IMG/VR virus record: IMGVR_UViG_3300037847_004731
Location: 1 to 22,007 of that record
Origin: a virus
DNA: 22,007 nucleotides
Strand: one strand, 5' to 3'
Shown: positions 1,392-22,007 of the stretch, piece by piece
How the letters are laid out: each line of letters opens with the position of its first letter
Numbering within the stretch: position 1 is the first letter of the stretch
Made by a program: the position numbers and the translations under genes
The notes under the pieces: generated by a model
Database searches by the model: none
What the model was told of the DNA's origin: nothing
What the model saw: the letters and a program-made list of their open reading frames with translations, nothing else

Positions 1392-3389
1392 ATGGCATTA
1401 GCTTCTCCTGGAGTACTAGTCAAAGAGGTTGATTTTACAGCAACAGTTAACGTAGCAGATCAAAATATTGGTGTTATTTCTATTGCTGCTGAAAAGGGAC
1501 CTACTGATCAAGTAACTTACATCTCAAGCGAGAGAGAATTAGTAGAAATATTTGGTGAACCAAACAAGTACAATTACGAATCTTGGTTTGCTGCGAGTAC
1601 AATCATCCAATACGGTGCTGTTGCTGCAGTCATCCGCCCAGTCGCTTCTGGTCTTGGATTAAATAACGCAAACATTGTAAGAGCTGGTACAAGTTTGACC
1701 AATCTCTTAATTAAGAACAAAGATGAATTTGAATCTGGTACTCCAGGTGCATATGAGTGGGCAGCAAGAACTCCTGGTACTAACTTCAACGGAATTTCTG
1801 TTGCGGTTGTTGACCACGGTGCAGACCAAAGAGTTACTGCAACTGGTCACGGTTTGACATCATCAGATTTAGGAAAGTATGTTCAGTGGACTACTGGAGG
1901 AGTTGTTTATAAGGCTAACGTATTTGCAATTCCAGATGCTAACACTCTAGATATTACTCTTTGGGATACAACAAAGAGACTAACTGGTACTGAAGCATTA
2001 GTTGAAGCAGATAGCACAGCAGTTGCTACAGTTTCTGCAATAGTATCTGATGATGTGTATGCTACACTAGAATATGCACCTGGACTTAAGTGGACTTCAA
2101 TTGCTCCACAACCAGGAACATCTGCAAGTGTAAAAGAAGCAGGTGGTAAGTATGACGAATTCCACATTGCTGTAATTGATACAGATGGTATTTACAGTGG
2201 TGTTAAGAACAGTGTTCTAGAGACTCTTACTTTTGTATCTAAAGCATCTGATGCAAAATCTGATTCTGGTGATGCACTTTACTGGAATAAGGTAGTTACG
2301 AATCAATCATCATTTGTGTATGCCGGAAGTGAAACTTTCGCTGACTCTGGTGATCAACTAGCACTTGCTGGTCAATCTGGTACAGCAACTGATATTGGTG
2401 GTGCTCAACTAAATGCAACATTTAAGTTGTTCTCATTCTCTGGTGCATCTACCGAGTCACGTAAACTTGCTAGTGGTGCTGAGTATGATTGGGCAAATAG
2501 TGCAGCAGCGATTCAAGATGCTGTTGTTGATGGATACGATTTGGTAGAAGATCCAGAAATTTTTGGAGATATTGATTTCCTAATTCCTGGTAAAATAACT
2601 GCTTCTGCTGTTGTTAGACTAATTGCAATCGCTGATAAGAGAAGAGATTGTATTGTAGTTGCTTCTCCTGAAAGAAGTGATGTAATCAACTCAAATAGTT
2701 CTACCAAGAAGACTGACGATATCATCTCATTCTTCAAGACTCTACCAAGCACCTCGTACGCTATTTACGATTCTGGTTATAAGTACATTTATGATAAGTA
2801 CAATGATGTTTATCGTTATGTTCCATGTGCTGCTGATGTAGCAGGTCTTTGCTTATCAACTACACTCAACTCAGAAACTTGGTTCTCTCCTGCTGGTTAT
2901 AACAGAGGACAGGTTCGTAATGCAACCAAACTTGCATACTCACCAAGACAAGCTGAAAGAGATAGACTATACACAAATAGAGTAAACCCAATTGTTGCTT
3001 TCCCTGGTCAGGGTATTGTATTATTCGGTGATAAAACCGCTCTCGCATCTCCTAGTGCATTTGACAGAATTAATGTTCGTCGTTTGTTTATTGAACTTGA
3101 GAAGAACATTGCACAGTTCTCGAAATATCAACTCTTTGAGATCAATGATGAATTGACGAGATCTGGATTTAGAGCCGCCGTTGAACCTTATCTAAGAGGT
3201 ATTCAAGGAAGAAGAGGTATCTACGACTTCTTGGTTGTTTGTGATACTTCAAACAACACTGGAGATGTTATTGACAGAAATGAGTTGGTTGCTGAAATCT
3301 TCATCAAACCAGCGCGTTCTATCAACTACATCACAATTTCTTTCGTAGCGACTAGAACTGGTGTTTCTTTCAATGAGTTAATTAACTGA
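1392..3389 (+). CDS. gp18: Tail sheath protein gp18
   Basis: This is the contractile tail sheath subunit, which stacks in rings around the tail tube and contracts on infection. The 665-residue length is close to T4 gp18 (659 aa). The N-terminus MALASPGVLVKEVDFT and the C-terminal segment around KPARSINYITISFVATRTG, which builds the polymerising core, are typical of myovirus sheath proteins. Residues roughly 100-370 are Gly/Ser/Thr/Ala-rich and beta-like and correspond to the variable, surface-exposed middle domains. It has its own late promoter (ATAAATA at 1351) and a Shine-Dalgarno TAGAGG eight bases before the ATG. The tube gene gp19 follows after 41 bases, as in T4. The minus-strand frames opposite are shadows. 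Confidence 0.95.
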   Translation: MALASPGVLVKEVDFTATVNVADQNIGVISIAAEKGPTDQVTYISSERELVEIFGEPNKYNYESWFAASTIIQYGAVAAVIRPVASGLGLNNANIVRAGTSLTNLLIKNKDEFESGTPGAYEWAARTPGTNFNGISVAVVDHGADQRVTATGHGLTSSDLGKYVQWTTGGVVYKANVFAIPDANTLDITLWDTTKRLTGTEALVEADSTAVATVSAIVSDDVYATLEYAPGLKWTSIAPQPGTSASVKEAGGKYDEFHIAVIDTDGIYSGVKNSVLETLTFVSKASDAKSDSGDALYWNKVVTNQSSFVYAGSETFADSGDQLALAGQSGTATDIGGAQLNATFKLFSFSGASTESRKLASGAEYDWANSAAAIQDAVVDGYDLVEDPEIFGDIDFLIPGKITASAVVRLIAIADKRRDCIVVASPERSDVINSNSSTKKTDDIISFFKTLPSTSYAIYDSGYKYIYDKYNDVYRYVPCAADVAGLCLSTTLNSETWFSPAGYNRGQVRNATKLAYSPRQAERDRLYTNRVNPIVAFPGQGIVLFGDKTALASPSAFDRINVRRLFIELEKNIAQFSKYQLFEINDELTRSGFRAAVEPYLRGIQGRRGIYDFLVVCDTSNNTGDVIDRNELVAEIFIKPARSINYITISFVATRTGVSFNELIN

Positions 3390-3430
3390 TTTCTATTTTT
3401 TCGACAAAACACTACTAGGAGACAACAAAA

Positions 3431-4072
3431 ATGGCTAGAGGTATTTCAGAGTTTAAAACTAAACTAATTAATGGAGGCGCCAGACCCAATCTATTTCTGG
3501 TCCGCCTCAATTTCCCAACAACACTAAGTCAAATTGCTGACATCGAAGCAGTCGATTCATCAAATATTTTGACTGAAAGAGCAGAGTTTCTTGTAAAAAC
3601 TGCTCAACTTCCTGCTTCAACAATCGGAACAATTGATGTTCCTTTCAGAGGAAGAATGCTAAAGGTTGCTGGTGACAGAACTTTTGAACCATGGTCCGTA
3701 ACAGTCGTCAATGACGGCGAGTTCGGTATTCGTAAAGCATTCGAAACATGGTCAAGAGGTATCAATGCTCTAACTGAGAACGTATCGCAACTCGGTTATG
3801 GTGATGATAATCCTGGTTATTGTGTAGACCTTGAGGTATTCCAACTCAGCAGAGATAAGAAGACTCCAAACAAAACACCAACTAACATCACTGCTGCTGG
3901 TGTTGATGGTATGGATGTCGTCCGTGCATATAAGTTCTATGATGCATGGCCTTCTTCACTATCCGCAATTGATCTTTCCTATGAATCAAATGATCAGATT
4001 GAGGAATTCACTGTTGAATTCCAATACAACTACTACGAGGCTTCCAATCCAAGCCTTGATACTGGTGTCTGA
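3431..4072 (+). CDS. gp19: Tail tube protein gp19
   Basis: This encodes the tail tube subunit, whose hexamers form the inner conduit for DNA ejection within the sheath. Placement immediately after gp18 and before the portal matches T4 gp18-gp19-gp20. The N-terminus MARGISEFKTKLINGGARPN, the segment VPFRGRMLKVAGDRTFEPWSVTV and the C-terminal QIEEFTVEFQYNYYEA resemble T4-type tube proteins. It is longer than T4 gp19 (213 against 163 aa), as I recall for cyanophage homologues. A Shine-Dalgarno AGGAGA (3417-3422) lies eight bases before the ATG; no late-promoter box is visible in the 41-base gap, so it is probably cotranscribed with gp18. The TGA stop is followed at once by TAA and overlaps the next late promoter. 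Confidence 0.93.
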   Translation: MARGISEFKTKLINGGARPNLFLVRLNFPTTLSQIADIEAVDSSNILTERAEFLVKTAQLPASTIGTIDVPFRGRMLKVAGDRTFEPWSVTVVNDGEFGIRKAFETWSRGINALTENVSQLGYGDDNPGYCVDLEVFQLSRDKKTPNKTPTNITAAGVDGMDVVRAYKFYDAWPSSLSAIDLSYESNDQIEEFTVEFQYNYYEASNPSLDTGV

Positions 4073-4078
4073 TAAATA
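4072..4078 (+). promoter_or_regulatory. Predicted late promoter (ATAAATA) for gp20
   Basis: GATAAATAG spans the gp19 stop: the final A of TGA (4070-4072) is the first base of ATAAATA. T4 spacing predicts a start near 4084 and a leader of about 22 bases before the portal ATG. No Shine-Dalgarno at normal spacing is seen; AGGAAG at 4081-4086 is 19 bases from the ATG. Confidence 0.7.
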
Positions 4079-4105
4079 GTAGGAAGAATACACGCATATT
4101 ATACT

Positions 4106-5746
4106 ATGTCCCAATTATTTGGATTTTCAATTGAGGAGCGTAAAAAGAAAGAAAAACTTTTTTCACCCGCTCCTCCCAATAATGATGATGGCACCTCCAC
4201 AGTAGCTGCAGGTGCCTATTTTGGTCAGTATGTAGATATTGATGGAATTCCAAAGAATAATAATGACTTTGATCTGATCAAAAAATACAGAGAGATTGCT
4301 CTACATCCAGAGTGTGATAGTGCTATTGATGATATCATCAATGAATCTATTAGTAGTGACTTAGATTTTGCTCCAGTTAAAATTGAACTAAGTAATCTAG
4401 AAGTCAGCGAAAAAATTAAAAAACAAGTTAGAGAAGAATTTGATTATATTTTACGTTTATTGGATTTTGATAAAAGGTGTCACGATATTTTCCGTAGATG
4501 GTACATCGATGGAAGACTTCACTATCATAAGATGATCGACTTTGATAATCCTGCAGAGGGTATCAAAGAGTTGAGATATATTGACGCACTTAAAATTAAA
4601 AAAGTAAGAGAAGTAATTAAGAAAAAACCTAACGTCTCTCAAGTAGAAATAGGACCAGCGGGAGAAAAATATGATTATGGTGAAGTACTTGAATATTATA
4701 TGTACTTCCCACACGGATATAAAGCAACTCAAGCAAAAGGATTAAAAATTGCTTCAGATGCAATTACATTCGTAAACTCTGGTTTGATGGATCATAATAG
4801 AAATAGTGTCCTATCATTCCTACACAAAGCAATTAAGGCGGTAAATCAACTCCGTATGATTGAAGATTCTCTCGTTATCTACAGATTATCACGTGCTCCA
4901 GAACGTAGAATTTTCTATATTGACGTTGGTAATCTACCAAAAATGAAAGCGGAACAATACCTTAGAGAGGTTATGAATCGCTACCGTAATAAGTTAGTTT
5001 ATGATTCAAACACTGGTGAAGTACGTGATGATCGTAAACATATGAGTATGCTAGAAGATTTCTGGTTGCCTCGTAGAGAGGGTGGTCGTGGTACTGAGAT
5101 TACCACACTTCCTGGTGGACAGAATTTAGGTGAACTAGAGGATGTCAAGTATTTCCAGAAAAAACTTTATAAGTCTTTGAACATTCCTCTTTCAAGACTT
5201 GAACAAGAATCGTCTTTCACAATCGGAAGAACAAACGAAATCACTAGGGACGAACTTAAGTTTGCTAAATTTGTTGGTCGTCTTCGTAAAAAATTCTCAG
5301 AACTATTCCACGATTTATTAAAAACTCAACTAGTTCTTAAGGGTATTATGACCCTTGAGGATTGGGATGATCTTAAAGAAAATATTCAATATGATTATAT
5401 CTTTGACAACCATTTTACAGAATTAAAGAATAATGAATTACTAACAGAAAGATTAAATTCTGTTGGCTTGATGGAACCCTATATAGGAAAGTACTTCTCA
5501 GTGGAGTACATCCGTAAACAAGTTTTACAATTTACCGATGAAGAGATTGAAGAACTTGATCTACAAATAGATAAAGAAAGACAACTCGGAATTATTCAGG
5601 ATCCCATGCAAATGATGGATCAAATGGGTGGAGAACAACCAGCGCTTCCTGGTGGCGGTGGTGCTGATGCGGAAGCAGGATCTGATTTAGATAGTGCTTT
5701 CTCTGCAGCTATCTCACCTTCTGATTATAACAAAGGTAATATTTGA
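4106..5746 (+). CDS. gp20: Portal vertex protein gp20
   Basis: This is the portal subunit, a dodecameric ring at one capsid vertex that initiates head assembly and passes DNA during packaging and ejection. The 546 residues match T4 gp20 (524 aa) closely. Recognisable segments include LIKKYREIALHPECDSAIDD, DIFRRWYIDGRLHYHKMIDF, and the stem region VIYRLSRAPERRIFYIDVGN, conserved in T4-like portals and the reason gp20 serves as a cyanophage marker gene. The C-terminus ends in a low-complexity tail (MQMMDQMGGEQPALPGGGG..., then Ala/Asp/Ser). It lies between gp19 and the core genes as in T4, with a late promoter overlapping the previous stop. Its TGA again leads straight into TAA and another late promoter. 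Confidence 0.96.
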   Translation: MSQLFGFSIEERKKKEKLFSPAPPNNDDGTSTVAAGAYFGQYVDIDGIPKNNNDFDLIKKYREIALHPECDSAIDDIINESISSDLDFAPVKIELSNLEVSEKIKKQVREEFDYILRLLDFDKRCHDIFRRWYIDGRLHYHKMIDFDNPAEGIKELRYIDALKIKKVREVIKKKPNVSQVEIGPAGEKYDYGEVLEYYMYFPHGYKATQAKGLKIASDAITFVNSGLMDHNRNSVLSFLHKAIKAVNQLRMIEDSLVIYRLSRAPERRIFYIDVGNLPKMKAEQYLREVMNRYRNKLVYDSNTGEVRDDRKHMSMLEDFWLPRREGGRGTEITTLPGGQNLGELEDVKYFQKKLYKSLNIPLSRLEQESSFTIGRTNEITRDELKFAKFVGRLRKKFSELFHDLLKTQLVLKGIMTLEDWDDLKENIQYDYIFDNHFTELKNNELLTERLNSVGLMEPYIGKYFSVEYIRKQVLQFTDEEIEELDLQIDKERQLGIIQDPMQMMDQMGGEQPALPGGGGADAEAGSDLDSAFSAAISPSDYNKGNI

Positions 5747-6718: not shown

Positions 6719-7747
6719 ATGTCCGATAAAAATATTGAATTAGAAGAGTCTTCGGTAACTTCAAACGCAAGTGCCGCAGATCCAATGCCAAAGATTGATA
6801 ACACTGTTCCAGGTCAGACTGGTTCTGCTGAAGATCTTGGCGGTCCGCTAACCAAAACTGCACCTGGAACAGAAGAAACTCCTGGTAAGAAAGTTTCTGC
6901 GAAAGCATCGAAAATTTCTAACAGAGTTAATCAAGGTGCTGGTGCTCCTGATCCAATGCCAACTCTCCAAGGTTCCGCACCTGGTCAAGCTGGTATGAAG
7001 GAAAGCGAAGAAGTAGAACCAGAAATGTCTATCGATGTTAAAGATGACGTTGAAGCACTTCTTCGTGGAGAAGAGTTCTCTGAGGAGTTCAAGTTTAAAG
7101 CATCAACAATCTTTGAAGCTGCTGTAAAGGCTAAAGTTGTTGAAGAAGTTGAGAAACTTGAAAAAGTCTACGAGGAGAAACTCGAAGCACAGGTTGCAGA
7201 GATGAAAGAATCTCTAGAAACCAAAGTTGAAGCCCACCTTGAGTATGCTACTGAACAGTGGGTTAATGAAAACAAGATCGCTATTGACAGCGGTCTCCGC
7301 AGTGACTTGACCGAAGAGTTCATTCTTGGACTTAAGAACCTCTTCGAAGAACATTATGTCGATATCCCTGAAGATAAGTATGATGTTCTCGGCGAAATGT
7401 CCGAGAAATTAGATCAAATGGAAGTGAAACTCAACGAGCAAATCGAGACAAACGTTGAGCTCAATCAGACGATCGGAAACTATATTAAAAATGGAGTAAT
7501 TGCAGAAATTTCCGAGGGTCTTGCTCAGACACAAAAAGAAAAGCTTACCTCTTTAGCAGAAGGTGTTGAGTTCGTTAGTGAAGAATCTTATCGTGAAAAG
7601 ATCGAAACGATCAAGGAAAATTATTTCCCTAAGACACAAGCATCTTCTACGGAAGATCTAGTCGAACAGAAGACTGAAACTACTGTTTCTGATCCTTCAA
7701 GTCCAATGGCTGCTTATGAAGCTGCCCTTAGAAGATGGACTAAGTGA
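6719..7747 (+). CDS. gp22: Prohead scaffold (major core) protein gp22
   Basis: This is the assembly scaffold that fills the prohead and is degraded by gp21 during maturation. Position between gp21 and gp23 is diagnostic. The first 95 residues are a low-complexity, probably disordered region holding two copies of a DPMP...PGQxG motif (residues 21-35 and 78-92). Residues about 100-310 are Glu/Lys-rich with coiled-coil character, such as KAKVVEEVEKLEKVYEEKLE, as expected for a scaffold. The C-terminus SSPMAAYEAALRRW resembles the capsid-contacting C-terminal helix of T4-like gp22. The length (342 aa) is somewhat above T4 gp22 (269 aa), mainly from the N-terminal region. A Shine-Dalgarno AGAGG precedes the ATG. 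Confidence 0.92.
   Translation: MSDKNIELEESSVTSNASAADPMPKIDNTVPGQTGSAEDLGGPLTKTAPGTEETPGKKVSAKASKISNRVNQGAGAPDPMPTLQGSAPGQAGMKESEEVEPEMSIDVKDDVEALLRGEEFSEEFKFKASTIFEAAVKAKVVEEVEKLEKVYEEKLEAQVAEMKESLETKVEAHLEYATEQWVNENKIAIDSGLRSDLTEEFILGLKNLFEEHYVDIPEDKYDVLGEMSEKLDQMEVKLNEQIETNVELNQTIGNYIKNGVIAEISEGLAQTQKEKLTSLAEGVEFVSEESYREKIETIKENYFPKTQASSTEDLVEQKTETTVSDPSSPMAAYEAALRRWTK
6779..6994 (+). repeat. Duplicated DPMP...PGQxG motif in gp22
   Basis: Two 15-residue copies lie 42 residues apart in the gp22 N-terminus: DPMPKIDNTVPGQTG (6779-6823) and DPMPTLQGSAPGQAG (6950-6994). Codons for DPMP are nearly identical (gatccaatgcca in both), which suggests duplication or strong constraint. Confidence 0.6.
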
Positions 7748-7755
7748 CATCTTTA

Positions 7756-7762
7756 CTAAATA
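7756..7762 (+). promoter_or_regulatory. Predicted late promoter (CTAAATA) for gp23
   Basis: ACTAAATAATC lies nine bases after the gp22 stop. CTAAATA is a one-base variant of the late box used elsewhere in this window. T4 spacing gives a start near 7768 and a leader of about 39 bases, with a good Shine-Dalgarno AGGAGA (7792-7797) nine bases before the gp23 ATG. Confidence 0.65.
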
Positions 7763-7806
7763 ATCTTAGATTCCTAACATAACAAACAACTAGGAGAAAA
7801 TCCAAA

Positions 7807-9180
7807 ATGTATAATTCAGAATCCCTTCAAGAGAAGTGGTCTCCCATTCTTGAGTCCTCTGCTCTAGAGTCAATCAAAGATCCTCATAGACGCGCTGTAA
7901 CAGCTGTTCTTCTTGAGAACCAAGAGCGTTTCATGCGTGAAGAGCGCGGAATGCTTGCTGAAGGTCCAACCAACTCTGCTGGTAACCTCGGTTTCTCTGG
8001 TTCAGGCGCTAACCCACCTGTTGCTGGTTTCGATCCAGTTCTAATCAGCCTCATTCGTCGTTCTATGCCTAAGTTGATGGCATACGACATTTGTGGTGTA
8101 CAACCAATGTCTGGTCCTACTGGACTTATCTTCGCAATGCGCTCCCAGCGTGGTACTGACCGCGATGGTAACGGTGCGAATCCAAACGTATTCACCAACG
8201 AAGCATTCTATAACGAGACTCCAACTGGATTCTCTGCTAACGACGGTACGTATTCTGCTGCAACTGGCGAAGACGCAACTAACCCTTCAGTTCTTAACGC
8301 TTCTTCACCTGGTAACTATGCCGCTGTCGGTGGTATGGACACCGCAACTCTTGAGAGTCTAGGTGATGGCACCTCTGGAACTGAGTTCCGCGAGATGTCA
8401 TTCTCGATCGAGAAAGTTGCTGTTGAAGCAAAAGGTCGCGCTCTAAAGGCCGCCTATTCACTAGAACTCGCTCAAGACCTCAAGGCGATCCATGGTCTTG
8501 ACGCTGAAGCAGAACTTGCTAACATTCTTTCTGCTGAAGTTCTTGCTGAAATCAACCGCGAAGTCGTTCGTACTATCTACGTAACTGCAAAACCTGGTGC
8601 TCAGAACAACGTTGCTAACGGTGGTTCATTCGACCTAGACGTTGACTCTAACGGTCGTTGGATGGCAGAGAAGTTCAAAGGACTTATCTACCAGATCGAA
8701 AGAGATGCAAACGCAATCGGTCAAGAGACTCGTAGAGGGAAGGGCAACTTCATCGTCTGTTCTGCAGACGTTGCTTCCGCCCTTGCAATGGCAGGTGTCA
8801 TGGACTACGCTCCTGCTCTTAATGGTAACAACGGTCTTGCTGGTGTTGATGACACCGAGTCAACTCTAGTTGGTACTCTCAACGGTCGTATCAAGGTCTA
8901 CGTTGATCCTTATTCTGCTAACATTGCAGACGATCACTTCTATGTCATGGGTTATAAGGGTACTTCTGCTTATGATGCAGGTCTCTTCTACTGCCCATAC
9001 GTTCCTCTCCAGATGGTCCGTTCCATCGGTCAGGATTCCTTCCAACCAAGAATTGGCTTCAAGACCCGCTACGGCATGGTCGCGAACCCATTCTCCCGTG
9101 GAACCACTCAGTCAAGCAACGCTCTCGTTGCCAACGCCAACGTCTACTACAGACGTACCCGCGTTCTCAACCTCATGTGA
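7807..9180 (+). CDS. gp23: Major capsid protein gp23
   Basis: This is the main capsid subunit (HK97 fold). The N-terminus MYNSESLQEKWSPILES, the segment FDPVLISLIRRSMPKLMAYD and the C-terminal KTRYGMVANPFSRG are hallmark T4-like gp23 sequences. At 457 residues it is somewhat shorter than T4 gp23 (521 aa), as in cyanophages. A probable gp21 cleavage site, GMLAE|G after residue 52, matches the (L/I)xE rule and would remove a 52-residue propeptide. Codon use differs from its neighbours: C-ending codons (AAC, TTC, CGC, ACC) are much commoner, in keeping with very high expression. It is flanked by a late promoter upstream and a strong terminator downstream; the stop is a TGA-TAA tandem. Confidence 0.97.
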   Translation: MYNSESLQEKWSPILESSALESIKDPHRRAVTAVLLENQERFMREERGMLAEGPTNSAGNLGFSGSGANPPVAGFDPVLISLIRRSMPKLMAYDICGVQPMSGPTGLIFAMRSQRGTDRDGNGANPNVFTNEAFYNETPTGFSANDGTYSAATGEDATNPSVLNASSPGNYAAVGGMDTATLESLGDGTSGTEFREMSFSIEKVAVEAKGRALKAAYSLELAQDLKAIHGLDAEAELANILSAEVLAEINREVVRTIYVTAKPGAQNNVANGGSFDLDVDSNGRWMAEKFKGLIYQIERDANAIGQETRRGKGNFIVCSADVASALAMAGVMDYAPALNGNNGLAGVDDTESTLVGTLNGRIKVYVDPYSANIADDHFYVMGYKGTSAYDAGLFYCPYVPLQMVRSIGQDSFQPRIGFKTRYGMVANPFSRGTTQSSNALVANANVYYRRTRVLNLM

Positions 9181-9199
9181 TAAGAATTCACATAATTCT

Positions 9200-9225
9200 A
9201 GAGGGTCTTCGGACCCTCTTTTTTT
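9200..9225 (+). terminator. Rho-independent terminator after gp23
   Basis: AGAGGGTC (9200-9207) pairs perfectly with GACCCTCT (9212-9219) around a TTCG loop, and the 3' arm runs into a T stretch through 9225. The 8-bp stem closed by C(TTCG)G is exceptionally stable. It lies 20 bases after the gp23 stop and is the only clear intrinsic terminator in the window. Confidence 0.92.
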
Positions 9226-9253
9226 GTATACATATACTAGAGGCAAAACTAAA

Positions 9254-9424
9254 ATGCTAAAAACTCCAAGAGACATTGTAAATGAAAGACTTTCTTGGTC
9301 AAGTGATGTAGCAATAAAGAATCATTGTGTACATGTTTTAGAAACATATTTGAAAGATGAACCAACACTCACAGAAAAAGACCTCAGAGAAGCACTTGGT
9401 ACTTATTTGATGGGTTTGGAATAA
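9254..9424 (+). CDS. Small hypothetical protein (56 aa)
   Basis: The protein starts MLKTPRDIVNERLSWSSDVA and ends EALGTYLMGLE; it is soluble, charged and predicted mainly helical. I do not recognise a family. A longer reading frame extends upstream through gp23 (from 8870), but that part is a shadow of the capsid gene. The real start is at 9254, because it lies after the gp23 terminator and has AGAGG (9239-9243) ten bases upstream. Codon use is AT-rich like the neighbouring accessory genes and unlike gp23. Its TAA stop lies inside the next late promoter (ATAAATA 9421-9427). Transcription probably comes from read-through of the terminator or an unseen promoter between 9226 and 9253. Confidence 0.7.
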   Translation: MLKTPRDIVNERLSWSSDVAIKNHCVHVLETYLKDEPTLTEKDLREALGTYLMGLE

Positions 9425-9427
9425 ATA
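9421..9427 (+). promoter_or_regulatory. Predicted late promoter (ATAAATA) for the accessory tail genes
   Basis: GAATAAATAG contains the TAA stop (9422-9424) of the 56-aa gene within the ATAAATA box. With T4 spacing the start would be near 9433, leaving about eight bases before the ATG at 9441 and no Shine-Dalgarno, so the transcript would be almost leaderless. Confidence 0.6.
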
Positions 9428-9440
9428 GTTAAAAAACGTT

Positions 9441-10457
9441 ATGGCATATTTTGCTGAAAATCCAAACTGTCCATCTAACTTCTTGTCAGGAGTTGGATTT
9501 CAGTTTAGTTTGAAAAAATTGCCTGGAGTATCTTTTTACTGTCAGTCTGCTAATGTACCTTCCCAGAATTTAGCTGTTGCAACACAACCAACTAGATTCA
9601 ATACTTTACCAGAACCAGGTGACGAAGTAAATTATGATGATCTAACCATCAGATTTTTGGTGGATGAGGATTTAAAAAATTACAGATCTATTCATAATTG
9701 GATTAGATATCTAGGTCACCCTGAGTCAGAAAAAGACTGGAGTACCTATTCTGATGGAGAATCATATCAAGAAAAACAATACAGTGATGGAGTATTGTTT
9801 GTTTTAGATTCTAATTTCAATAAAAAATTTAGAATTTATTTTAAAGATCTTTTTCCAGTATCTTTATCTGGTTTGAACTTTGATTCAACATATACAGATA
9901 CAGAATACTTTGCTGTTGATGCTACCTTTAAGTTCACCATATTCGATATCGAGGAGGTAGGAGCGACTGGTTTTTTTACCGAACCTAGAGAAAAACCAAC
10001 AATATCATTGTCTCATGTTTTAGATAGTTCAACTTTGTCTTTAACATGGACATCTGAAAATGCTGATTATGTAACCATAGATCAGGGAGTTGGTGAGGTT
10101 GCAACTTCTGGAACTGATGATATTGCAAGAACTACTGTTGAAAGTAGTGCTAATAATGGTTATATAACTTATACAGCAGTAGCATATGGCAAAGGCGGAA
10201 CAGCAACTGCATCTACTGTAGTAAATGTTGCTAACCCAGTACTAAGCGAGAACATAACTTGCATAGCTATTATTGACGAAAATGATAACAATAGTCTTGC
10301 GTCTATGGAATCTAAATGGGCACAGTTTAGAACAAATTGGCCTAATAGAAAATTCTATCTACTGCAACCTGTAGGAGGTGGTTGGGGCAATCAACTCAAT
10401 GTTCCAATAGATTTCCTAGAAACAACAGACCCATCAACGTATAACGGATCGAGGTAA
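9441..10457 (+). CDS. Tail protein, gp3/tail-tube-like, with Ig-like and VWA-like C-terminal extension
   Basis: Residues 1-175 (NFLSGVGFQFSLKKLPGVSF, TIRFLVDEDLKNYRSIHNWI, GLNFDSTYTDTEYFAVDATF) resemble the gp19-fold tail proteins of cyanomyoviruses that are annotated as gp3, the tail completion and sheath stabiliser, or as a tube-like protein. The position after gp23 and before uvsY fits gp3. Residues 185-264 form an Ig/PKD-like domain (LTWTSENADYVTIDQGVGEV is a widespread signature in phage and bacterial surface proteins). Residues 271-338 (CIAIIDENDNNSLASME, then WPNRKFYLLQP) look like the first strand-helix-strand of a VWA domain with a degenerate metal site, ending early. The extension would probably be exposed on the virion. 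The gp3 label is moderate; the domain extension is inferred by eye. Confidence 0.65.
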   Translation: MAYFAENPNCPSNFLSGVGFQFSLKKLPGVSFYCQSANVPSQNLAVATQPTRFNTLPEPGDEVNYDDLTIRFLVDEDLKNYRSIHNWIRYLGHPESEKDWSTYSDGESYQEKQYSDGVLFVLDSNFNKKFRIYFKDLFPVSLSGLNFDSTYTDTEYFAVDATFKFTIFDIEEVGATGFFTEPREKPTISLSHVLDSSTLSLTWTSENADYVTIDQGVGEVATSGTDDIARTTVESSANNGYITYTAVAYGKGGTATASTVVNVANPVLSENITCIAIIDENDNNSLASMESKWAQFRTNWPNRKFYLLQPVGGGWGNQLNVPIDFLETTDPSTYNGSR

Positions 10458-10459
10458 TT

Positions 10460-11992
10460 ATGCCGCTTTTTAATTTAAGCATGAAACATGTTTTTCCTGG
10501 TAGAGGTAGTAGAACTCCAGGATGGGTATCTAACACGGCAAGTATGTTACAAGAATTTGAAAATTTTTATGAGAACTCGAATGATTTTAATGGACTACCA
10601 GATATTTTAAATCCAGCTAAATACACTTTAGATTTAATTTATGAACATATAGCTCCTGCAATGACACTTGTAGAATGGATTGAAGCTCAAGAAACTGGTT
10701 GGTCTGGACCTGGAGAGTCGCGAGAAAATGCATATCAAGTTTCCATAAATGATTCTCAAAAACAATTTGCAGTAGAAAATCTCGGTGGGGATGCATCACC
10801 AAATGCACTTAGGGAAGAGTACAAAAAGATGATGGCGGGATCTCCAACATTATCACATACATTTTTTAAATTAAATACTAATGATGCTTATGGGGGGGTG
10901 AATTGGACTGAAGAGGGTGAGCTAGAAATATACGATATATATAACTTTGAGGGGTGGGGTGACTTCGGTGCTTTTTGGGATATTAATGGAGACTGGAAAA
11001 CACAAATAAAAGGTGTTGCAAAATTTCTGGCTGTTGGTATTTTTGGTAGGGCAGCAGCTGCTGAAAATATACGAGTAAGAGCAGCATTAGTTGCTATGGG
11101 ATATAATCCAAGTACTGGTGAATTTTGGGATGGAGATCCTATATCTTTATACAAAGATGATCAACTTGCATTTACTTTATGGAGAAGAAATGAAGATGAT
11201 GGAATTCCTGATTGGCCAACATTAACATATACAAGAAATTTGTATATTCAAGTTAAATTTACTCCAGAAGAAATATGTGCATATAATAAACCTTTGTTTC
11301 GAGATGCTGTCGCAAAAGGGTTTATAAAATTAACTCAAACTCCTGCTGGTAGTTGTGGACGTATCGCTAATGCTCCCGAATGTTTCGATGGATCAAATGC
11401 AACGTATGAAGTTGGAGCAGCACAACCACCACCGATACTGGGATTCCCATATTATCCACCAAATGTGATGACACTTTCATCACCGACGAATACAAGTTCA
11501 TATAATTATGGAGCAAGTAATAGATATCCATCACCATACACTAGTTTTCAACAACAAATAACTAACAATTTAAATATTTTAGGTCCATATGCAAAATTGG
11601 GTGATATAACTGGTCGGGTAAGATTAATACTTTCGGGTGAAGGTGAAGGAGTTGGTCAGCCAGCATTTGTTGCTCAATGTTGGGATGAATTTGATGATGG
11701 ACCAAATAATGTAGATGGAAATGGAGTTCAATATTTGTCAAAGAGTGATTGGTGGGATACATGCGATAAAGTAAAAGTCACCATGAGAGTTGCAATTTTT
11801 GATAACAATCCAATTCTTGTTCATATATTTGGTGAAGGTGGTGTTGAAGTTGCAGTAAAATCTTATAGTGGTCCAGCCGCAGATGATGTTTGGCAACCTA
11901 CATATAACATATCCCAATCACCATTTGGTTCGGTATCTTTATCTGGATTGATTGGAATGGCAGCCATGGGTGCCACAGGATTTTTAGTATAG
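10460..11992 (+). CDS. Unrecognised probable virion protein (510 aa)
   Basis: I do not recognise this family. The protein is Trp-, Tyr- and Gly-rich: residues 160-190 contain FEGWGDFGAFWDINGDW, residues 320-365 are a Pro/Tyr/Ser/Asn-rich low-complexity linker (QPPPILGFPYYPP), and the C-terminus is glycine- and alanine-rich and hydrophobic (SVSLSGLIGMAAMGATGFLV). Six Cys residues cluster between 273 and 435. It has no signal peptide and no obvious catalytic motif. The ATG is two bases after the preceding stop, with GAGG of that gene's last codons as Shine-Dalgarno. Its stop overlaps the Shine-Dalgarno of the next gene. Location between two multidomain virion-like genes suggests a structural or adhesin role; this is inference only. 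Confidence 0.7.
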   Translation: MPLFNLSMKHVFPGRGSRTPGWVSNTASMLQEFENFYENSNDFNGLPDILNPAKYTLDLIYEHIAPAMTLVEWIEAQETGWSGPGESRENAYQVSINDSQKQFAVENLGGDASPNALREEYKKMMAGSPTLSHTFFKLNTNDAYGGVNWTEEGELEIYDIYNFEGWGDFGAFWDINGDWKTQIKGVAKFLAVGIFGRAAAAENIRVRAALVAMGYNPSTGEFWDGDPISLYKDDQLAFTLWRRNEDDGIPDWPTLTYTRNLYIQVKFTPEEICAYNKPLFRDAVAKGFIKLTQTPAGSCGRIANAPECFDGSNATYEVGAAQPPPILGFPYYPPNVMTLSSPTNTSSYNYGASNRYPSPYTSFQQQITNNLNILGPYAKLGDITGRVRLILSGEGEGVGQPAFVAQCWDEFDDGPNNVDGNGVQYLSKSDWWDTCDKVKVTMRVAIFDNNPILVHIFGEGGVEVAVKSYSGPAADDVWQPTYNISQSPFGSVSLSGLIGMAAMGATGFLV

Positions 11993-12002
11993 GAGATAAA
12001 TT

Positions 12003-13982
12003 ATGCCAGCAATTACATCTCAAAATAAAAATTACTTTAAAGGATATTTAAAGAGACATAGAAAAAAATTTACCAGTGATCTACAACTAATAAATTTATC
12101 CGATTTAACAGATGTTTTTGATCAATTAGATTCAAATTTAACTATAGGAACGCAAACTGTTAAGGTTGGATTATATGGAACAGAGTCCGATCCACCACTA
12201 GATATATCTTCACTAACAAATAATGAATTTTTATATTTACCTGCACAAGCTGGAGATGCTATTTTTCTAAAAACAGGTTATATAACAACTAAACTAACAT
12301 ACAATGGTCAAAATGCTTTTAATCATGTAAGATCGGACAACACAATTGCTTCATATGGAATTAATTCTCCTTTAACTATTGGAAACAAAACTATTGTAGC
12401 AAAAGGTTTTGGTGGAATATTATTGACCGTTGAAGATGCTCCAACATATACCATAACAGATAATGCTGTCGAAAATCCATCGTCCGATGGTGATGTTTTT
12501 GATATAATAGAAGGTGGGACTATAACATATACTATAACAACTACTAATGTACCAGATGGAACTGTTGTTTATTACACATTAGGTGGTTCTGTAGAAGCTA
12601 ATGATTTTGTTTCTGCGACAACTGGTTCTATACAATTTCAAAATAATCAAGCATCACTATCTCTACAAACTGCTTTTGATCTTTCATCTACAGAAAGTGA
12701 AACTTTTTATCTACAATTAAGAAGTGTTGGTATCACTGGACCAGTAATTGCAGAAGGAAGAGAAATTACATTAGTTGATAAAGTTGTAACTTGTTCAATT
12801 GCAGAATCTGCAACAACAATTGCTGAAGGATCTTCTATTACATATACTGTCACCACATCTGGATTGGATGATGGCACAGTTCTAAATTTTCAATCATCAA
12901 ATACATCTGATGTTGTTCCAGCATCTGGAAATATAACTATAAACAACAACACTGCATCATTTACGGTTACATCTACAGAAGACGTTTTTGTAGAAAGTGA
13001 TGAAACATTTACTGTAGATGTAAAATATCTCAATAATGTTCTTGCAACTAGTAGTGAAGCAACTATTCAAAACACCACATCATATACTTTTGCTGTATCC
13101 GCATCAACAGTTAGTGAAAATAATGAAGTAACTTTTACTATTAATACTACTGGAATTCCAAATGGAACTGGATTAAGTTATGTAGCAAGTTTGAACAATA
13201 TTGATCTTTCTCCAGCTGCCGGTAATTTTACAATTAACAATAATACTGCTTCTATAACAATAAAAGCATTACAAGATTTAAAAGTAGATAGTGGTGAAAA
13301 TTTTTATCTTATTATTAGAAGTGGTGGTATTATTGTAGCAACTTCATCTACAGTTTCTATTACAGATACTCCATATACTATTACTGTAACTCCAGATCAA
13401 CCATTTAATATAGATGAATCTATATTAGGTTCTACTACATCTACTACATTCACGATAACAACTACTGGAGTTGGGGATGGCACTGTTTTAAGTGTATTGC
13501 CTTCATCTGGAAATAATTTAGATATTAGTTTGTCATCTTCTTCTATAACAATAAACAACAACACAGCAACAGTAACCGCAACGATAGTTAGGGATGCAAG
13601 GACTGAAGGTGTTGAAACAATGAATCTACAATTCAACAACACCTCTGGAGATACAGTAATCACATCTCCAGTTATTACAGTTGCGGATACATCTTTTGTT
13701 GGATCGAGACAAGATAATAAAACATTTGGTCCTATTACTGTTAATAGGGATTGGAATGTTGAATCAAATGCTTCAGACTACTATACAATTTGTGGCCTAG
13801 ATAGTGTACCAGATGGCGGAAAAATTGCTATCTTTGTTGATAACTCTGGTAGTATGAGAACCAGTACAGTTAGAGCATCTATCAACAAACTATTGCTTAG
13901 ATTACAACCCAGAAACATTTCTATTGTAGTTGTAGAAAATCCTTCCGAAGACTGGATTTCATCATTTGATACTCCACTATGA
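12003..13982 (+). CDS. Calx-beta repeat protein with truncated VWA/MIDAS C-terminus (659 aa)
   Basis: Residues 1-147 are an N-terminal domain starting with a basic segment (KGYLKRHRKKF), perhaps for attachment to the virion. Residues 148-564 are four tandem beta-sandwich repeats of about 95-113 residues, each with TxTIxTTG(V/I/L)xDGTxL, an ITINNNTA strand and an E/D-rich turn before F/TFxLxxR; these match Calx-beta-type calcium-binding repeats found in adhesins. Residues 607-659 read KIAIFVDNSGSM, an intact DxSxS metal site of a VWA domain, but the protein ends about 45 residues later, before the rest of the domain. The likely role is a virion surface fibre or decoration that binds host or glycan. 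AGGAGA precedes the ATG by six bases; the stop overlaps the uvsY start (ATGA). Confidence 0.8.
   Translation: MPAITSQNKNYFKGYLKRHRKKFTSDLQLINLSDLTDVFDQLDSNLTIGTQTVKVGLYGTESDPPLDISSLTNNEFLYLPAQAGDAIFLKTGYITTKLTYNGQNAFNHVRSDNTIASYGINSPLTIGNKTIVAKGFGGILLTVEDAPTYTITDNAVENPSSDGDVFDIIEGGTITYTITTTNVPDGTVVYYTLGGSVEANDFVSATTGSIQFQNNQASLSLQTAFDLSSTESETFYLQLRSVGITGPVIAEGREITLVDKVVTCSIAESATTIAEGSSITYTVTTSGLDDGTVLNFQSSNTSDVVPASGNITINNNTASFTVTSTEDVFVESDETFTVDVKYLNNVLATSSEATIQNTTSYTFAVSASTVSENNEVTFTINTTGIPNGTGLSYVASLNNIDLSPAAGNFTINNNTASITIKALQDLKVDSGENFYLIIRSGGIIVATSSTVSITDTPYTITVTPDQPFNIDESILGSTTSTTFTITTTGVGDGTVLSVLPSSGNNLDISLSSSSITINNNTATVTATIVRDARTEGVETMNLQFNNTSGDTVITSPVITVADTSFVGSRQDNKTFGPITVNRDWNVESNASDYYTICGLDSVPDGGKIAIFVDNSGSMRTSTVRASINKLLLRLQPRNISIVVVENPSEDWISSFDTPL
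12444..13694 (+). repeat. Four tandem Calx-beta-like repeats
   Basis: The units cover approximately 12444-12782, 12783-13076, 13077-13373 and 13374-13694. Units 2-4 share an almost invariant strand encoding ITINNNTA (or FTINNNTA) with closely similar DNA (acaataaacaacaacac-type); unit 1 is divergent (IQFQNNQA). Borders are approximate because they were placed by eye from the recurring motifs. Confidence 0.75.
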
Positions 13983-17909: not shown

Positions 17910-18184
17910 TGTTTATACTAACTCTAAAAGACGGTAAAGAAGAAGGTGCATATGCTGTAGAAACAAAAGATGGTGACAAGGTTCTCCAGATATTTGAAAA
18001 CTCAGACGATGCCGAGAGATATATTGGTCTTTTAGAGGCAGATAACTTTCCTTCACTTCATGCAATTGAAATAGAACCAGAACAGGCCATTGCGGCATGT
18101 GATAGATTCGGGTATAATTATGTGATCATAACTCCCGAAGACTTCGTAATCCCACCAAATTTCCAGTCATATGATTTTATTTAA
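17909..18184 (+). CDS. DUF3110-like cyanobacterial protein (91 aa)
   Basis: The segment VLQIFENSDDAERYIGLLEADNFPS followed by a GYNYVIITPEDFVIPP-type end matches, from memory, DUF3110, a small protein family common in cyanobacteria and plastids (pattern: hydrophobic-F-E-x-x-D-D-A-x-R-Y-x-x-L-L-E-A-x-D-F-P). Its biochemical role is not known to me. It lies between the two subunit genes of the gp46/gp47 nuclease, starting in the gp47 stop and overlapping the gp46 start by 14 bases, so its dose is linked to that complex. Acquisition from a cyanobacterial host is a reasonable inference. The frame and overlaps make it a real gene. Confidence 0.82.
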   Translation: MFILTLKDGKEEGAYAVETKDGDKVLQIFENSDDAERYIGLLEADNFPSLHAIEIEPEQAIAACDRFGYNYVIITPEDFVIPPNFQSYDFI

Positions 18185-19889
18185 GAGTGTAACATATAAA
18201 AACTTTTTAGCATCTGGAAACAACCCCATAAAAATTGACTTGAATAATCATGGATCTACTTTGATTATCGGTCAGAATGGTGCTGGTAAAAGTACTATTA
18301 TTGAAGCACTTGTATTTGCTCTGTTTAATAAATCTTTTCGTAAGGTAAATAAAAATCAACTTATCAATACTATTAATGAAAAAGACTGTGTTGCTGAGGT
18401 AGAGTTTTCTATTGGATCCGTTGAGTGGAAAGTAAGACGTGGTATCAAACCAAGTGTATTTGAAATATACAAAAATGGAACTCTTCTAAACCAATCATCT
18501 TCTGCAGTTGATCAACAAAAATGGTTTGAACAATCTGTTCTTAAATTGAACTATAAATCATTTACGCAAATTGTAGTTCTGGGGTCTTCTACATTTGTTC
18601 CCTTTATGCAGTTACCAGCTGCTTCTAGGAGAGAAATTATTGAAGACCTATTGGATATTCGTATCTTCTCTACGATGAATGTAATCTTGAAAGACAGAGT
18701 TAAAACTTCTACAGAAGAACTCAGATCTTTTGAAACACAAATTTCTTTTCTCAAAGAAAAAGCAGATATGCAACAGTCTCACATTAAGTCATTGGAGAAG
18801 ACTGCAAAGAAATCTATTTCTCAAAAAGAAGATAAAATTATTGAACTTCAAGAATCTGTAGATAATATTAATGAAGAGATTACAGGTCTGTATCAAAAAA
18901 TTGAGAAGGAAAATAATAAATTAAAAAAGTTTGATGGTATAGAAAATAAAATTAAGAAGCTAGAAAAAGAAATTACAACACATGTAAACTTAATTTCTAG
19001 GACGGAAAAAGAACAAGACTTTTTTAAAATTCATGATAAGTGTCCTAAATGTACTCAGGTCTTATCTGAAGAATTAAAAGAATCTCAAGTCAGTGAATGT
19101 CTTAATATTATTGAAACATCTAAAACTGCTGTAGATAAATTTAAAAGTCAACTAGACAAGACTACATCAATCCTTCAAAAACAAGCAAATATAAATGGGA
19201 ATGTTGCAGATTTAAATTGGTCAGTAAAATCAAAGTTGAACGATATCAAATCTTCTACAAATCTTATCAAAGAAATTAAAGGAGAAATTGAAACGCTTAA
19301 AAATGACAATGTAGATATTGCAGGAGAAAAAGAAAAATTGAGTGCGATTGCTACTCAGGGAGTTGAGGTTCAAAAAAATATAGTTGAACTAAAAAAAGAA
19401 CGTAGAAACTATGATTTAATTTCTACTCTGTTGAAAGATGGTGGTATTAAATCAATGATTATTCGGAAGTATCTTCCAGTAATGAATCAGTTAATTAATA
19501 AATATCTTCAAGCGCTTGATTTTTATGTAAATTTTACATTGGACGAAGAGTTCAGTGAAAGCATCAAGTCTAGGTATCGTGATGATTTTACTTATGCATC
19601 TTTTAGTGAAGGTGAAAAAATGCGTATTGACCTTGCTCTAATGTTTACGTGGAGATCTGTTGCTAAATTAAAAAACTCTGCAAATACAAATCTTTTGATT
19701 TTAGATGAAGTATTTGATTCTTCTCTAGATGTTGCTGGTACTGAGGATTTTCTGAGAATTATTCGTGGTATATATGAAGACACAAACATTTTTGTGATTT
19801 CTCATAAAGGTGAAATACTTCTGGATAAATTTGATAGAGTTCTTAAATTTGAAAAAATTAAAAACTTTAGTAGGGTATCAGTATCATGA
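18171..19889 (+). CDS. gp46: Recombination ATPase subunit gp46 (Rad50/SbcC-like)
   Basis: This is the SMC-like ATPase that pairs with gp47 to process DNA ends. Domains in order: Walker A GQNGAGKST (residues 34-42), a coiled-coil arm (about 180-290) rich in Lys/Glu, a CPKC zinc hook at 291-294, a return coiled coil (about 300-415), the ABC signature FSEGEKMR (478-485), and Walker B LLILDEVFD (508-516) followed by a D-loop and FVISHKGE (H-loop). At 572 residues it matches T4 gp46 (560 aa) and appears complete. The start ATG lies 14 bases inside the preceding DUF3110 gene. The stop overlaps the cpeT start (ATGA). Confidence 0.96.
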   Translation: MILFKSVTYKNFLASGNNPIKIDLNNHGSTLIIGQNGAGKSTIIEALVFALFNKSFRKVNKNQLINTINEKDCVAEVEFSIGSVEWKVRRGIKPSVFEIYKNGTLLNQSSSAVDQQKWFEQSVLKLNYKSFTQIVVLGSSTFVPFMQLPAASRREIIEDLLDIRIFSTMNVILKDRVKTSTEELRSFETQISFLKEKADMQQSHIKSLEKTAKKSISQKEDKIIELQESVDNINEEITGLYQKIEKENNKLKKFDGIENKIKKLEKEITTHVNLISRTEKEQDFFKIHDKCPKCTQVLSEELKESQVSECLNIIETSKTAVDKFKSQLDKTTSILQKQANINGNVADLNWSVKSKLNDIKSSTNLIKEIKGEIETLKNDNVDIAGEKEKLSAIATQGVEVQKNIVELKKERRNYDLISTLLKDGGIKSMIIRKYLPVMNQLINKYLQALDFYVNFTLDEEFSESIKSRYRDDFTYASFSEGEKMRIDLALMFTWRSVAKLKNSANTNLLILDEVFDSSLDVAGTEDFLRIIRGIYEDTNIFVISHKGEILLDKFDRVLKFEKIKNFSRVSVS

Positions 19890-20422
19890 TAGAAAAATTT
19901 AAAGATTTTTTTGTTGGAACTTTTGATAACTATAGTCAGTCTTTTGCTAGACCATTGTTATTCTCACCAGTTCATTTAATCCATAAACAAATTGGTGAGA
20001 ATTGGTTTTATGGTGAACAGCAAAACATATTTAAAACAAAACCTTATAGACAATTTGTTATTGAGATAATAGAATCTGATAATAAAATAATTACAAAAAA
20101 TTATAAAATTGATAATGAAAAACATTATCATTTGAGAAACATGGATTCTATATTTGATAGTTTAATATACACAGAAAATTGTGATAGAATTTTTACTTTA
20201 GATAAGGAAGTCTTTACTTCAAAAATGACTAGTTGTGATTGTATTGTTGATTGGAAAGGTCAACAAACATATGTTGAGAATAGCAGTATACTTAGTGAAG
20301 ATGTATATAAGATATATGATAAAGGTTTTTCTGTAGAAACGAAAGAATACGTATGGGGCTCTGAACATGGACATTATGATTTTGTGCGGTCTGATAAGGA
20401 ACCCTTATTGATCAGCCCTTGA
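19886..20422 (+). CDS. cpeT: CpeT/CpcT-like phycobiliprotein lyase (auxiliary metabolic gene)
   Basis: The 178 residues fit the CpeT/CpcT bilin lyase family, calycin-like barrels that help attach phycobilin chromophores to phycobiliproteins. Recognised segments are DNYSQSFARPLLFSPVHLIH (15-34), the PYRQFVIEI core (53-61), RNMDSIF, WKGQQTYVEN (123-132) and YDKGFSVETKEYVWGSEHGH (144-163), the last resembling the D-x-G...T-x-E-x-V-W-G box of the family. Homologues are known in marine cyanophages, where they probably modulate light harvesting during infection. It is the last gene of the gp55 operon, its ATG overlapping the gp46 stop. It is slightly shorter than host CpeT (about 190-200 aa). The family call is from memory of the motif pattern; CpeT versus CpcT type is not resolved. 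Confidence 0.8.
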   Translation: MIEKFKDFFVGTFDNYSQSFARPLLFSPVHLIHKQIGENWFYGEQQNIFKTKPYRQFVIEIIESDNKIITKNYKIDNEKHYHLRNMDSIFDSLIYTENCDRIFTLDKEVFTSKMTSCDCIVDWKGQQTYVENSSILSEDVYKIYDKGFSVETKEYVWGSEHGHYDFVRSDKEPLLISP

Positions 20423-20447
20423 CCACCGCTGCGTGGTGTGGTATGTT
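20419..20447 (+). promoter_or_regulatory. Sigma70-type promoter for the metalloprotease/VWA gene
   Basis: TTGACC (20419-20424), a 17-base spacer and TATGTT (20442-20447) resemble the gp55 promoter in spacing. The -35 box includes the cpeT stop codon (20420-20422). An inverted repeat ACCAC (20422-20426)/GTGGT (20433-20437) fills part of the spacer. The gene's Shine-Dalgarno AAAGGAA follows at 20459-20465, five bases before its ATG. Confidence 0.6.
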
Positions 20448-20470
20448 AGCCATATACCAAAGGAACCTAC

Positions 20471-22007
20471 ATGTCTACCACTGAAGTCAAAAGCAATCTT
20501 GCTAAACTGCTCGCAACCGAGAACCTGACTGTGGAACATGCTAATGTTCCCACAGCATCTTTTAATGTGGAAACAAGGGTTTTGTATCTTCCAACGTGGG
20601 ATAATATTACTAATGAAATTTATGATCTTCTTGTTGGTCATGAAGTAGGACACGCTCTCTACACTCCTCGTGATTATAGTTTGTCTCATGACTTCCCTCG
20701 TTCTTATTTGAACGTGGTTGAAGATGCTCGTATTGAACGTAAAATGAAACAAAAATATCCAGGTCTTGTTAAGTCATTCTTTGCTGGATATACTGAATTG
20801 AATGATAAAGATTTCTTTGAGATTAAAGATATTGATGTATCAAAAATGCTCCTGATTGACAGGATTAATTTGCATTTCAAAGTTGGTATTCATAATGTTT
20901 CTACTATCATTCCTTTTATTGAAGAGGAACTGCAATTTGTAGAGATGGTTTCGAATGTAGAAACATTTGATGATGTGGTAGATGTTTGTCAAAAAATTGC
21001 AGACTATGTTCGTGAAAGTAAAAAACAAGAGAAGGTAGAGGATATAAAAGCTGATACCAATGAGAACCCTGGCATGGGTGGTGGTGACGTTATTGAGTCC
21101 GAACAACAACAGGGAATGGAATCGGAAGATCAATCTGATGACTTTGATGATGCAAATGATTTTGATGATTTTGATGATGAAGATGGTGATTTTGATCTCG
21201 ATGAAGAATTAGAAAGTGCTTCTACAGATGAAGCATGGTCTCGTAATCAACGTAAACTAATTGATGAGAATTCTCTTCAGCGTCTTTATCTGACTCCTCC
21301 TCAAGTTGACTGGGAAAAATTTATCACAAATATTGAAGAGTTTTCTTCTGACATGGATTTTGTTTTTGAAGACATGAGTAAGAAAAATAGTTTCTTTGCA
21401 ACTTCTTTGGAGATGTGGCGTAAAAGTTACCTTGAGTTTAAAAAGGAAAGTAATAAATCTGTCGCATATCTAATCAAGGAATTTGAAATGAAAAAACGTG
21501 CTGATGAATATGCACGTTCTAGTACTTCTAAAACTGGAGTAATTGATACTAATAAATTGTTTTCTTATCGTTGGACTGAGGATATCTTTAAGAAAACATC
21601 TGTAGTCCCTACAGGTAAGAATCATGGATTGATCATGTATGTTGATTGGTCTGGATCTATGTCAGATACTTTGGAAGCTACAATTAAACAGTTGATTAAT
21701 CTAATTGTTTTCTGTAAGAAAGTAAGTATTCCATTCCAAGTATTTGCTTTTACTGATCGTAATACTTCTGATTACTATGATGTTTTTGCTAACAATACTC
21801 ATCATGAAATTGCAGTCTACAAAAAATTCTGTTTGGTAGAAATGTTTAATTCAGATATTAAAGGATCTGAATTTGAAAAACAAATCATGCGAGTTTGGAA
21901 TCTTACTCAGATGATTAAGTATCGTGGGTTTGACGGTGATTATCGTAAGTACGAACTTGGAAGCACTCCTTTGAATGATACTATTTTTGCTGCAATTCAT
22001 GTGTTCA
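20471..22007 (+). CDS. HExxH metallopeptidase-like / VWA protein, CobT-like (3' end outside window)
   Basis: The frame is open from ATG 20471 to the window edge (512 codons) and the gene continues beyond it. The N-terminal domain has HEVGH at residues 57-61 and, 20-odd residues on, NVVEDARIER (81-90), the layout of a gluzincin zinc site with a third Glu ligand. Residues about 215-250 are a highly acidic Asp/Phe-rich linker (SDDFDDANDFDDFDDEDGDF). Residues about 385-512 are a VWA domain with metal-site motifs DWSGSM (392-397), FAFTDR and GSTPLND. This N-domain/acidic linker/VWA order resembles CobT and related VWA partners of MoxR/CobS-type AAA+ ATPases; cyanophages commonly carry a cobS-like ATPase. 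Protease or chelatase-type function is not settled by sequence. A good Shine-Dalgarno supports the start. Confidence 0.85.
   Translation, partial: MSTTEVKSNLAKLLATENLTVEHANVPTASFNVETRVLYLPTWDNITNEIYDLLVGHEVGHALYTPRDYSLSHDFPRSYLNVVEDARIERKMKQKYPGLVKSFFAGYTELNDKDFFEIKDIDVSKMLLIDRINLHFKVGIHNVSTIIPFIEEELQFVEMVSNVETFDDVVDVCQKIADYVRESKKQEKVEDIKADTNENPGMGGGDVIESEQQQGMESEDQSDDFDDANDFDDFDDEDGDFDLDEELESASTDEAWSRNQRKLIDENSLQRLYLTPPQVDWEKFITNIEEFSSDMDFVFEDMSKKNSFFATSLEMWRKSYLEFKKESNKSVAYLIKEFEMKKRADEYARSSTSKTGVIDTNKLFSYRWTEDIFKKTSVVPTGKNHGLIMYVDWSGSMSDTLEATIKQLINLIVFCKKVSIPFQVFAFTDRNTSDYYDVFANNTHHEIAVYKKFCLVEMFNSDIKGSEFEKQIMRVWNLTQMIKYRGFDGDYRKYELGSTPLNDTIFAAIHVF

Follow-up and report, generated by a model that had tools for sequence, protein, structure and literature searches.

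A phage gene family annotated as 'peptidase' (PHROG 459, T4-GC 146) is already known from cyanophages and a pelagiphage, and this gene and its neighbour cobS (PHROG 249, T4-GC 150) are core genes of marine T4-like cyanophages, in which cobS is commonly listed among the B12 auxiliary metabolic genes (AMGs). The published readings of the pair conflict (Liu et al.; Iyer et al., PMC7824862). A 2021 paper describes the cyanophage gene as CobT 'mistakenly annotated as a peptidase', the pair is filed as CobST in PMC8651126, and PMC7029224 labels CobST an AMG of pelagimyophages. By contrast, Iyer et al. (2021; PMC7824862) reported that group 2.2 jumbo phages have a MoxR AAA+ gene next to a vWA protein 'fused to a N-terminal metallopeptidase domain', for which they proposed a role in virion assembly; in the same paper, the cyanophages form group 2.1. 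The cellular counterparts of such a pair are alphaproteobacterial CobT and CobS, which share with it an N-domain, an acidic linker, a VWA domain with a metal ion-dependent adhesion site (MIDAS), and a neighbouring AAA+ gene.

Here, we analysed a 22,007-nucleotide stretch of viral DNA (hereafter, the window), which makes up the whole of its source record. The open reading frame at 20471-22007 on the plus strand is real and still open at the end of the window; the encoded protein has 713 aa, of which the window covers the first 512. The end of the protein is supplied by L002, an IMG/VR contig that shares 99.4% identity with the final 9.09 kb of the window; residues from 513 on, including D531 of the MIDAS, lie beyond the window and were read from L002. 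As stated in an earlier reading made from the sequence alone (the sequence-only reading), the protein combines an HExxH domain, an acidic linker and a VWA domain, in this order. The features of the region are as follows.

20419..20447, plus strand: sigma70-like promoter, TTGACC-17-TATGTT, between the CpeT and peptidase genes (consensus match only, 9/12).
20471..22007, plus strand: metallopeptidase-VWA gene, first 512 of 713 codons, running off the window end; PHROG 459 'peptidase'; complete in L002 at 7553-9694.
20471..21046, plus strand: N-terminal domain, residues 1-192, predicted minigluzincin-like fold (AlphaFold2, Foldseek).
20639..20653, plus strand: HEVGH, residues 57-61, with H57 and H61 as putative zinc ligands and E58 as putative general base (HExxH conservation).
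20711..20737, plus strand: NVVEDARIE, N81-E89, with E84 as proposed third zinc ligand (invariant residues in the N-domain alignment; second helix of the model, 77-95).
21026..21220, plus strand: acidic low-complexity linker, about residues 186-250 (sequence and full-length alignment).
21617..22007, plus strand: VWA domain starting at about residue 383, cut by the window end (MIDAS residues invariant in the full-length alignment).
21644..21658, plus strand: DWSGS, MIDAS motif 1, residues 392-396 with D392, S394 and S396 (80/80 relatives).
21965..21967, plus strand: T499 of GSTPL, MIDAS motif 2 (invariant in the full-length alignment).

The window protein is another member of the known family. 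The PHROG 459 profile matches its residues 1-507 (E=1.6e-180) and, in the full-length L002 protein, residues 1-713 align onto 1-736 of the 736 profile positions (E=1.6e-221). Homologues are present in 463 of 50,697 phage records, nearly all of them from cyanophages. The protein shares with these relatives the motifs and the place between gp46 and gp45/cobS, and differs only in that its best identity to any phage record is ~43%; the proteins of L003 and L004 are 77% identical to it. No Pfam model (up to E=10) or NCBIfam model matched the window protein. The suggestion that the locus represents a poorly described system does not hold, given that the cluster already bears the annotation 'peptidase' and that a MoxR/metallopeptidase-vWA pairing has been published for related jumbo phages (PMC7824862).

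Conservation of the motifs is strict. In an alignment of 16 full-length relatives that are 32-76% identical to the window protein and come from diverse cyanophages, a pelagiphage and metagenomes, H57, E58, H61, N81, E84, D85, R87, D392, S394, S396, T499 and D531 are all invariant, and the MIDAS (DxSxS, T and D) is intact in the form that the sequence-only reading had recognized by its DxSxS, T and GxTPL motifs. The linker varies in length and sequence in this alignment, and its acidity is kept in all relatives. A 78-row alignment of the N-domain (mean column identity 60%) adds E89 to the invariant residues H57, E58, H61, N81, E84, D85 and R87. Among 80 further IMG/VR loci, HExxH and NxxED.R[IV]E are present in all 79 that reach the N-terminus and DxSGS is present in 80/80.

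A gluzincin-like metal site had also been proposed from the sequence, and structure prediction supports this proposal. The AlphaFold2 model of residues 1-192, built from 78 sequences (pLDDT 88, pTM 0.84), places HExxH on a helix spanning residues 48-64 and E84 on a helix spanning residues 77-95. In Foldseek searches of the PDB, the minigluzincins selecase (probability 0.97-0.99) and abylysin (0.96) ranked highest with weak E-values (best 0.058) and TM-scores of about 0.3 by query and 0.5 by target, followed, again with weak E-values, by ArdC, PprI/IrrE and Wss1, all of which are HExxH proteins. Because the E-values are weak, the fold assignment rests on the consistency of the matches together with the motif. 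In a viral structure library, the N-domain had further matches among phage proteins that bear the names CobT, VWFA or peptidase, one of them from Haloarcula tailed virus 2. A PDB sequence search with the full-length alignment gave chance matches only. Unlike the phage protein, minigluzincins are small stand-alone proteases without a VWA domain or an AAA+ partner. Putative metallopeptidases with a DUF2201_N domain (PF13203) resemble the phage protein in that HExxH lies about 25 residues ahead of an N..xD..I segment; we rejected them as the closest relative because the window protein has no PF13203 match and profile comparisons were not significant (5.9% and 0.4%).

Metal binding by an intact HExxH need not imply proteolysis. 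The zinc domain might be structural or regulatory, binding metal but cleaving nothing, in which case the protein would act purely as a co-chaperone or adaptor of an AAA+ ring in the way that CobT does for CobS. CobT shows that this fold family can work without a catalytic site; against this stands that E58, the putative general base, is as invariant as the putative ligands, which a structural zinc would not require. We consider this reading very improbable.

The sequence-only reading had called for a search for an AAA+ gene, and a partner was found directly downstream. In L002, a CobS-like AAA+ gene with the Walker A motif GLSGNGKT begins 65 bp past the stop codon of the peptidase-VWA gene, where it is cut at 159 aa by the contig end; L003 and L004 have a complete 356-aa AAA+ gene at the same position. 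A search for AAA_5 in the window's own record found none because this record ends with the window, and the gene was found in the overlapping L002. An AAA+ gene lies downstream in 60/60 IMG/VR loci whose sequence extends more than 1.5 kb past the peptidase gene, as it does in all annotated cyanophage regions read that include a CobS annotation. Searches with the peptidase and with the AAA+ protein returned equal numbers of records from Synechococcus (365), Cyanophage (61) and Prochlorococcus (24) phages. The AAA+ protein of L003 matches AAA_5 (E=6.6e-18) and resembles Midasin, CobS, NorQ and CbbQ chains in the PDB, and from its sequence we assign the partner to the MoxR/CbbQ/NorQ/CobS type of AAA+ proteins. 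Neither variability of HExxH among close homologues nor the lack of an AAA+ partner, two outcomes that the sequence-only reading had named as refuting it, was observed.

In annotated phages, the genes are arranged in the order gp47, gp46, peptidase, cobS, gp45 and gp44 with small insertions between them, and the order gp46, peptidase, cobS, gp45/gp44 was found in the window (18171-20471), L001, L002, L003, L016 and L021-L029. Directly before the peptidase gene, the window has a gene for a CpeT-like phycobiliprotein lyase (19886-20422; PF06206, E=1.9e-28), which suggests a cyanobacterial host. In Pelagibacter phage HTVC008M (L016), an open frame at 9490-10320 that is annotated as hypothetical protein has a second HExxH (HEYVH).

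The same architecture extends beyond cyanophages. HExxH followed by N..ED/VD, a VWA domain and an AAA+ gene are present in phages of Rhizobium, Klebsiella, E. coli, Vibrio, Gordonia, Bacteroides and Roseobacter and in a gut phage. The SSU5-type phage-plasmid, Rhizobium, Roseobacter, Bacteroides, ICP2-like and Gordonia 'CobT' proteins (PHROG 1576 and others) have HExxH, the downstream E/D motif, VWA and an AAA+ neighbour as in the window family; however, they are ~20-30% identical in parts, and the Pfam models CobT and CobT_C match many of them and not the window protein. The pair of Iyer et al. (PMC7824862) shares the two-gene architecture with the window pair, a likeness at the level of architecture. 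Staphylococcus kayvirus AAA+ matches were rejected as the same system, since the only long DxSxS ORF among their neighbours is PcfJ-like and lacks HExxH.

To compare the phage pair with a true CobS-CobT pair, we used that of a Sinorhizobium replicon (L034). Its CobT matches the Pfam models CobT (PF06213; 1e-96) and CobT_C (PF11775; 7e-112), while neither model matches the window protein (up to E=10) or the full S-SM1 protein (up to E=1). HExxH is present in none of 80 alphaproteobacterial CobT genes related to that of L034 (two apparent cases lay in upstream translated sequence, outside CobT). At the aligned position, CobT has R-G-x-x-D-x-x-A-L instead of HExxH, a pattern that is absent from the window protein, and it retains the following E-[QT]-x-R-x-E segment in 80/80 sequences. 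Similarly, CobS_N (PF12556) was not found in four phage AAA+ proteins at E<=0.05 or in that of S-SM1 at E<=1, whereas Sinorhizobium CobS matched it at 2.5e-17. Finally, CobT and CobS work with CobN, and a CobN-type protein was found in 0/14 phage genomes; in the controls, the search had a match in Synechococcus elongatus and none in E. coli.

These observations bear on the CobST reading, according to which a phage CobS-CobT would join the CobN or the magnesium-chelatase-like complex of the host and increase cobalamin for ribonucleotide reduction, as proposed in PMC8651126 and implied by the label in PMC7029224. The domain order and, through intermediates described below, the N-domain are indeed homologous to those of CobT, and a host CobN is possible in cyanobacteria, as the match in S. 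elongatus illustrates. On the other hand, HExxH separates the viral family (79/79) from true CobT (0/80), neither CobT model matches, and the tested phage AAA+ proteins lack CobS_N. Moreover, an E. coli phage-plasmid has HEVAH, a downstream ALEDVFIE, VWA and an AAA+ gene; cobalt insertion that depends on CobN cannot account for the pair there, as the CobN search had no match in E. coli. SAR11, the host of HTVC008M, is not known to synthesize cobalamin de novo, which also counts against this reading. We regard it as distinctly unlikely, and the absence of HExxH from CobT, of CobN from the phages and of CobS_N from their AAA+ proteins supports that the name 'cobalamin biosynthesis' is misleading for the phage pair, as the sequence-only reading had suspected. 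That reading had also set peptidase against CobT, and the former is favoured; the contrast was too sharp, however, because the CobT N-domain itself appears to be a distant HExxH-less homologue.

The evidence for this relationship comes from intermediates. Among 398 Pseudomonadota genomes, PF06213 had 141 matches, and the divergent ones were of two kinds: CobT-like proteins without HExxH that adjoin a CobS-like gene, and proteins with HExxH, N/G-x-x-ED-x-R-x-E and VWA, several of which have a different AAA+ gene nearby. In hhalign comparisons, the cyanophage N-domain matched the HExxH group with a probability of 98.4% (E=4.5e-15) and the HExxH group matched the CobT group with 95.3% (E=2.1e-8), while the cyanophage N-domain profile, when compared directly to that of CobT, gave no significant match (0.6% and 9%). 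With a model built from the HExxH group, many CobT sequences ranked above all shuffled decoys. In a tree, CobT and the CobT-like sequences beside CobS form a separate clade (100/99) nested among HExxH-bearing rows, in a topology with long deep branches and an arbitrary root. A fold search with the model of the CobT N-domain (pLDDT 90.6) retrieved no zincin; the link to CobT, therefore, is based on sequence and on secondary structure elements that follow one another in a similar order.

Thus, the CobT N-domain looks like a distant homologue of the phage N-domain, linked to it via HExxH-bearing intermediates, and the simplest reading is that the CobT lineage lost the zinc site. In a broader form of this idea, CobT of aerobic cobalamin synthesis would derive from an AAA+-coupled metallopeptidase that persists intact in phages, phage-plasmids and a few proteobacterial genomes; CobT would have lost HExxH once and kept the third-ligand helix and the AAA+ partnership, and the cyanophage pair would be a proteolytic machine. 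For this broader scenario as a whole, we see the chances as evenly balanced. CobT as a zinc-less relative reconciles the two published readings of the phage pair, and appears to be unstated in the literature searched, a body that leaves out most subscription journals. It places two contradictory readings in a common evolutionary frame and suggests a testable origin for CobT. Rare cellular or mobile-element HExxH-VWA copies were seen in ~6 of the 398 genomes (L236-L241), of which L236, L237 and L240 have a CbbQ/NorQ-like AAA+ gene nearby (GPTGCGKT or GHKGCGKT), while none was seen within the fetched stretch in L238, L239 and L241. In L230, an ORF at 3345-5162 beside an AAA+ gene has HEIVCH, with one residue inserted in HExxH, a possible snapshot of site loss.

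We also considered when the pair might be expressed. In the window, late-promoter-like xTAAATA motifs at 1351, 4072, 5746, 6676, 7756 and 9421 precede six head and tail genes at distances of 20-51 bases; none precedes a replication gene or the peptidase gene, and in S-SM1 most structural genes follow the same division. Among 76 homologues of the peptidase gene, only one has xTAAATA within 110 bases upstream (4.4 expected by shuffling), while 20 have sigma70-like sites with at least 10/12 matches, compared to 0.9% of shuffles. Because the late motif is absent in 75/76 homologues and sigma70-like sites are enriched, the peptidase gene appears to belong to the early or middle genes in the replication block. 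The main texts of the P-HM2 papers and of field transcriptomes do not name the peptidase and cobS genes with respect to expression timing.

This pattern is unfavourable to the proposal of Iyer et al. (PMC7824862), in which the MoxR/VWA pair would be a head or tail chaperone with proteolysis of structural proteins. That proposal was made by analogy with the MoxR-vWA pair of Acidianus two-tailed virus; it accords with the status of the gene as a core gene of structurally conserved myoviruses, the cyanophage hsp20 is also thought to aid assembly, and late transcription of the cobS partner is possible given CTAAATA upstream of cobS in 3/11 genomes checked (S-SM1, P-SSM2 and Syn9). However, the gene sits in the recombination/replication block gp47-gp46-peptidase-cobS-gp45-gp44, it almost always lacks the late motif that several structural genes carry, and host-type promoters are enriched upstream of it. 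The promoter pattern, thus, argues against a strictly late role and lowers the case for virion maturation, which we consider unlikely.

Our working hypothesis, which we hold to be fairly probable, is that the pair is an AAA+ driven zinc protease machine of early or middle infection and not a cobalt chelatase. Specifically, the CobS-like, MoxR-class AAA+ ring would spend ATP to remodel a substrate or complex, the VWA domain would use its MIDAS to dock the 713-aa protein onto the ring or the substrate, and the gluzincin domain at the N-terminus, with the acidic linker as its tether, would cut the remodelled substrate at a zinc site formed by H57, H61 and E84 with E58 as general base. The machine would probably act early or midway in infection, on a target that would be a host or phage protein of the replication phase. 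If so, the B12 ecological readings of cobS are wrong, and a conserved infection-phase proteolytic machine that is core to the most abundant ocean phages, and testable via the single residue E58, has carried a vitamin B12 label for twenty years.

Elsewhere in the window, two extra genes lie between gp23 and uvsY (9441-10457 and 10460-11992); one encodes a second tail-tube-like protein (PHROG 45, E=4.5e-36) with an added C-terminal part and the other a 510-aa protein without a family match. A further 659-aa protein (12003-13982), encoded between the structural genes and uvsY, consists of repeated beta-like units and has a second DxSxS-like stretch, IAIFVDNSGSM, near its C-terminus. Pfam gave no match, while PHROG 29022, a virion structural protein, matches its end (E=1.1e-13); the sequence suggests a possible virion adhesin containing part of a VWA domain.
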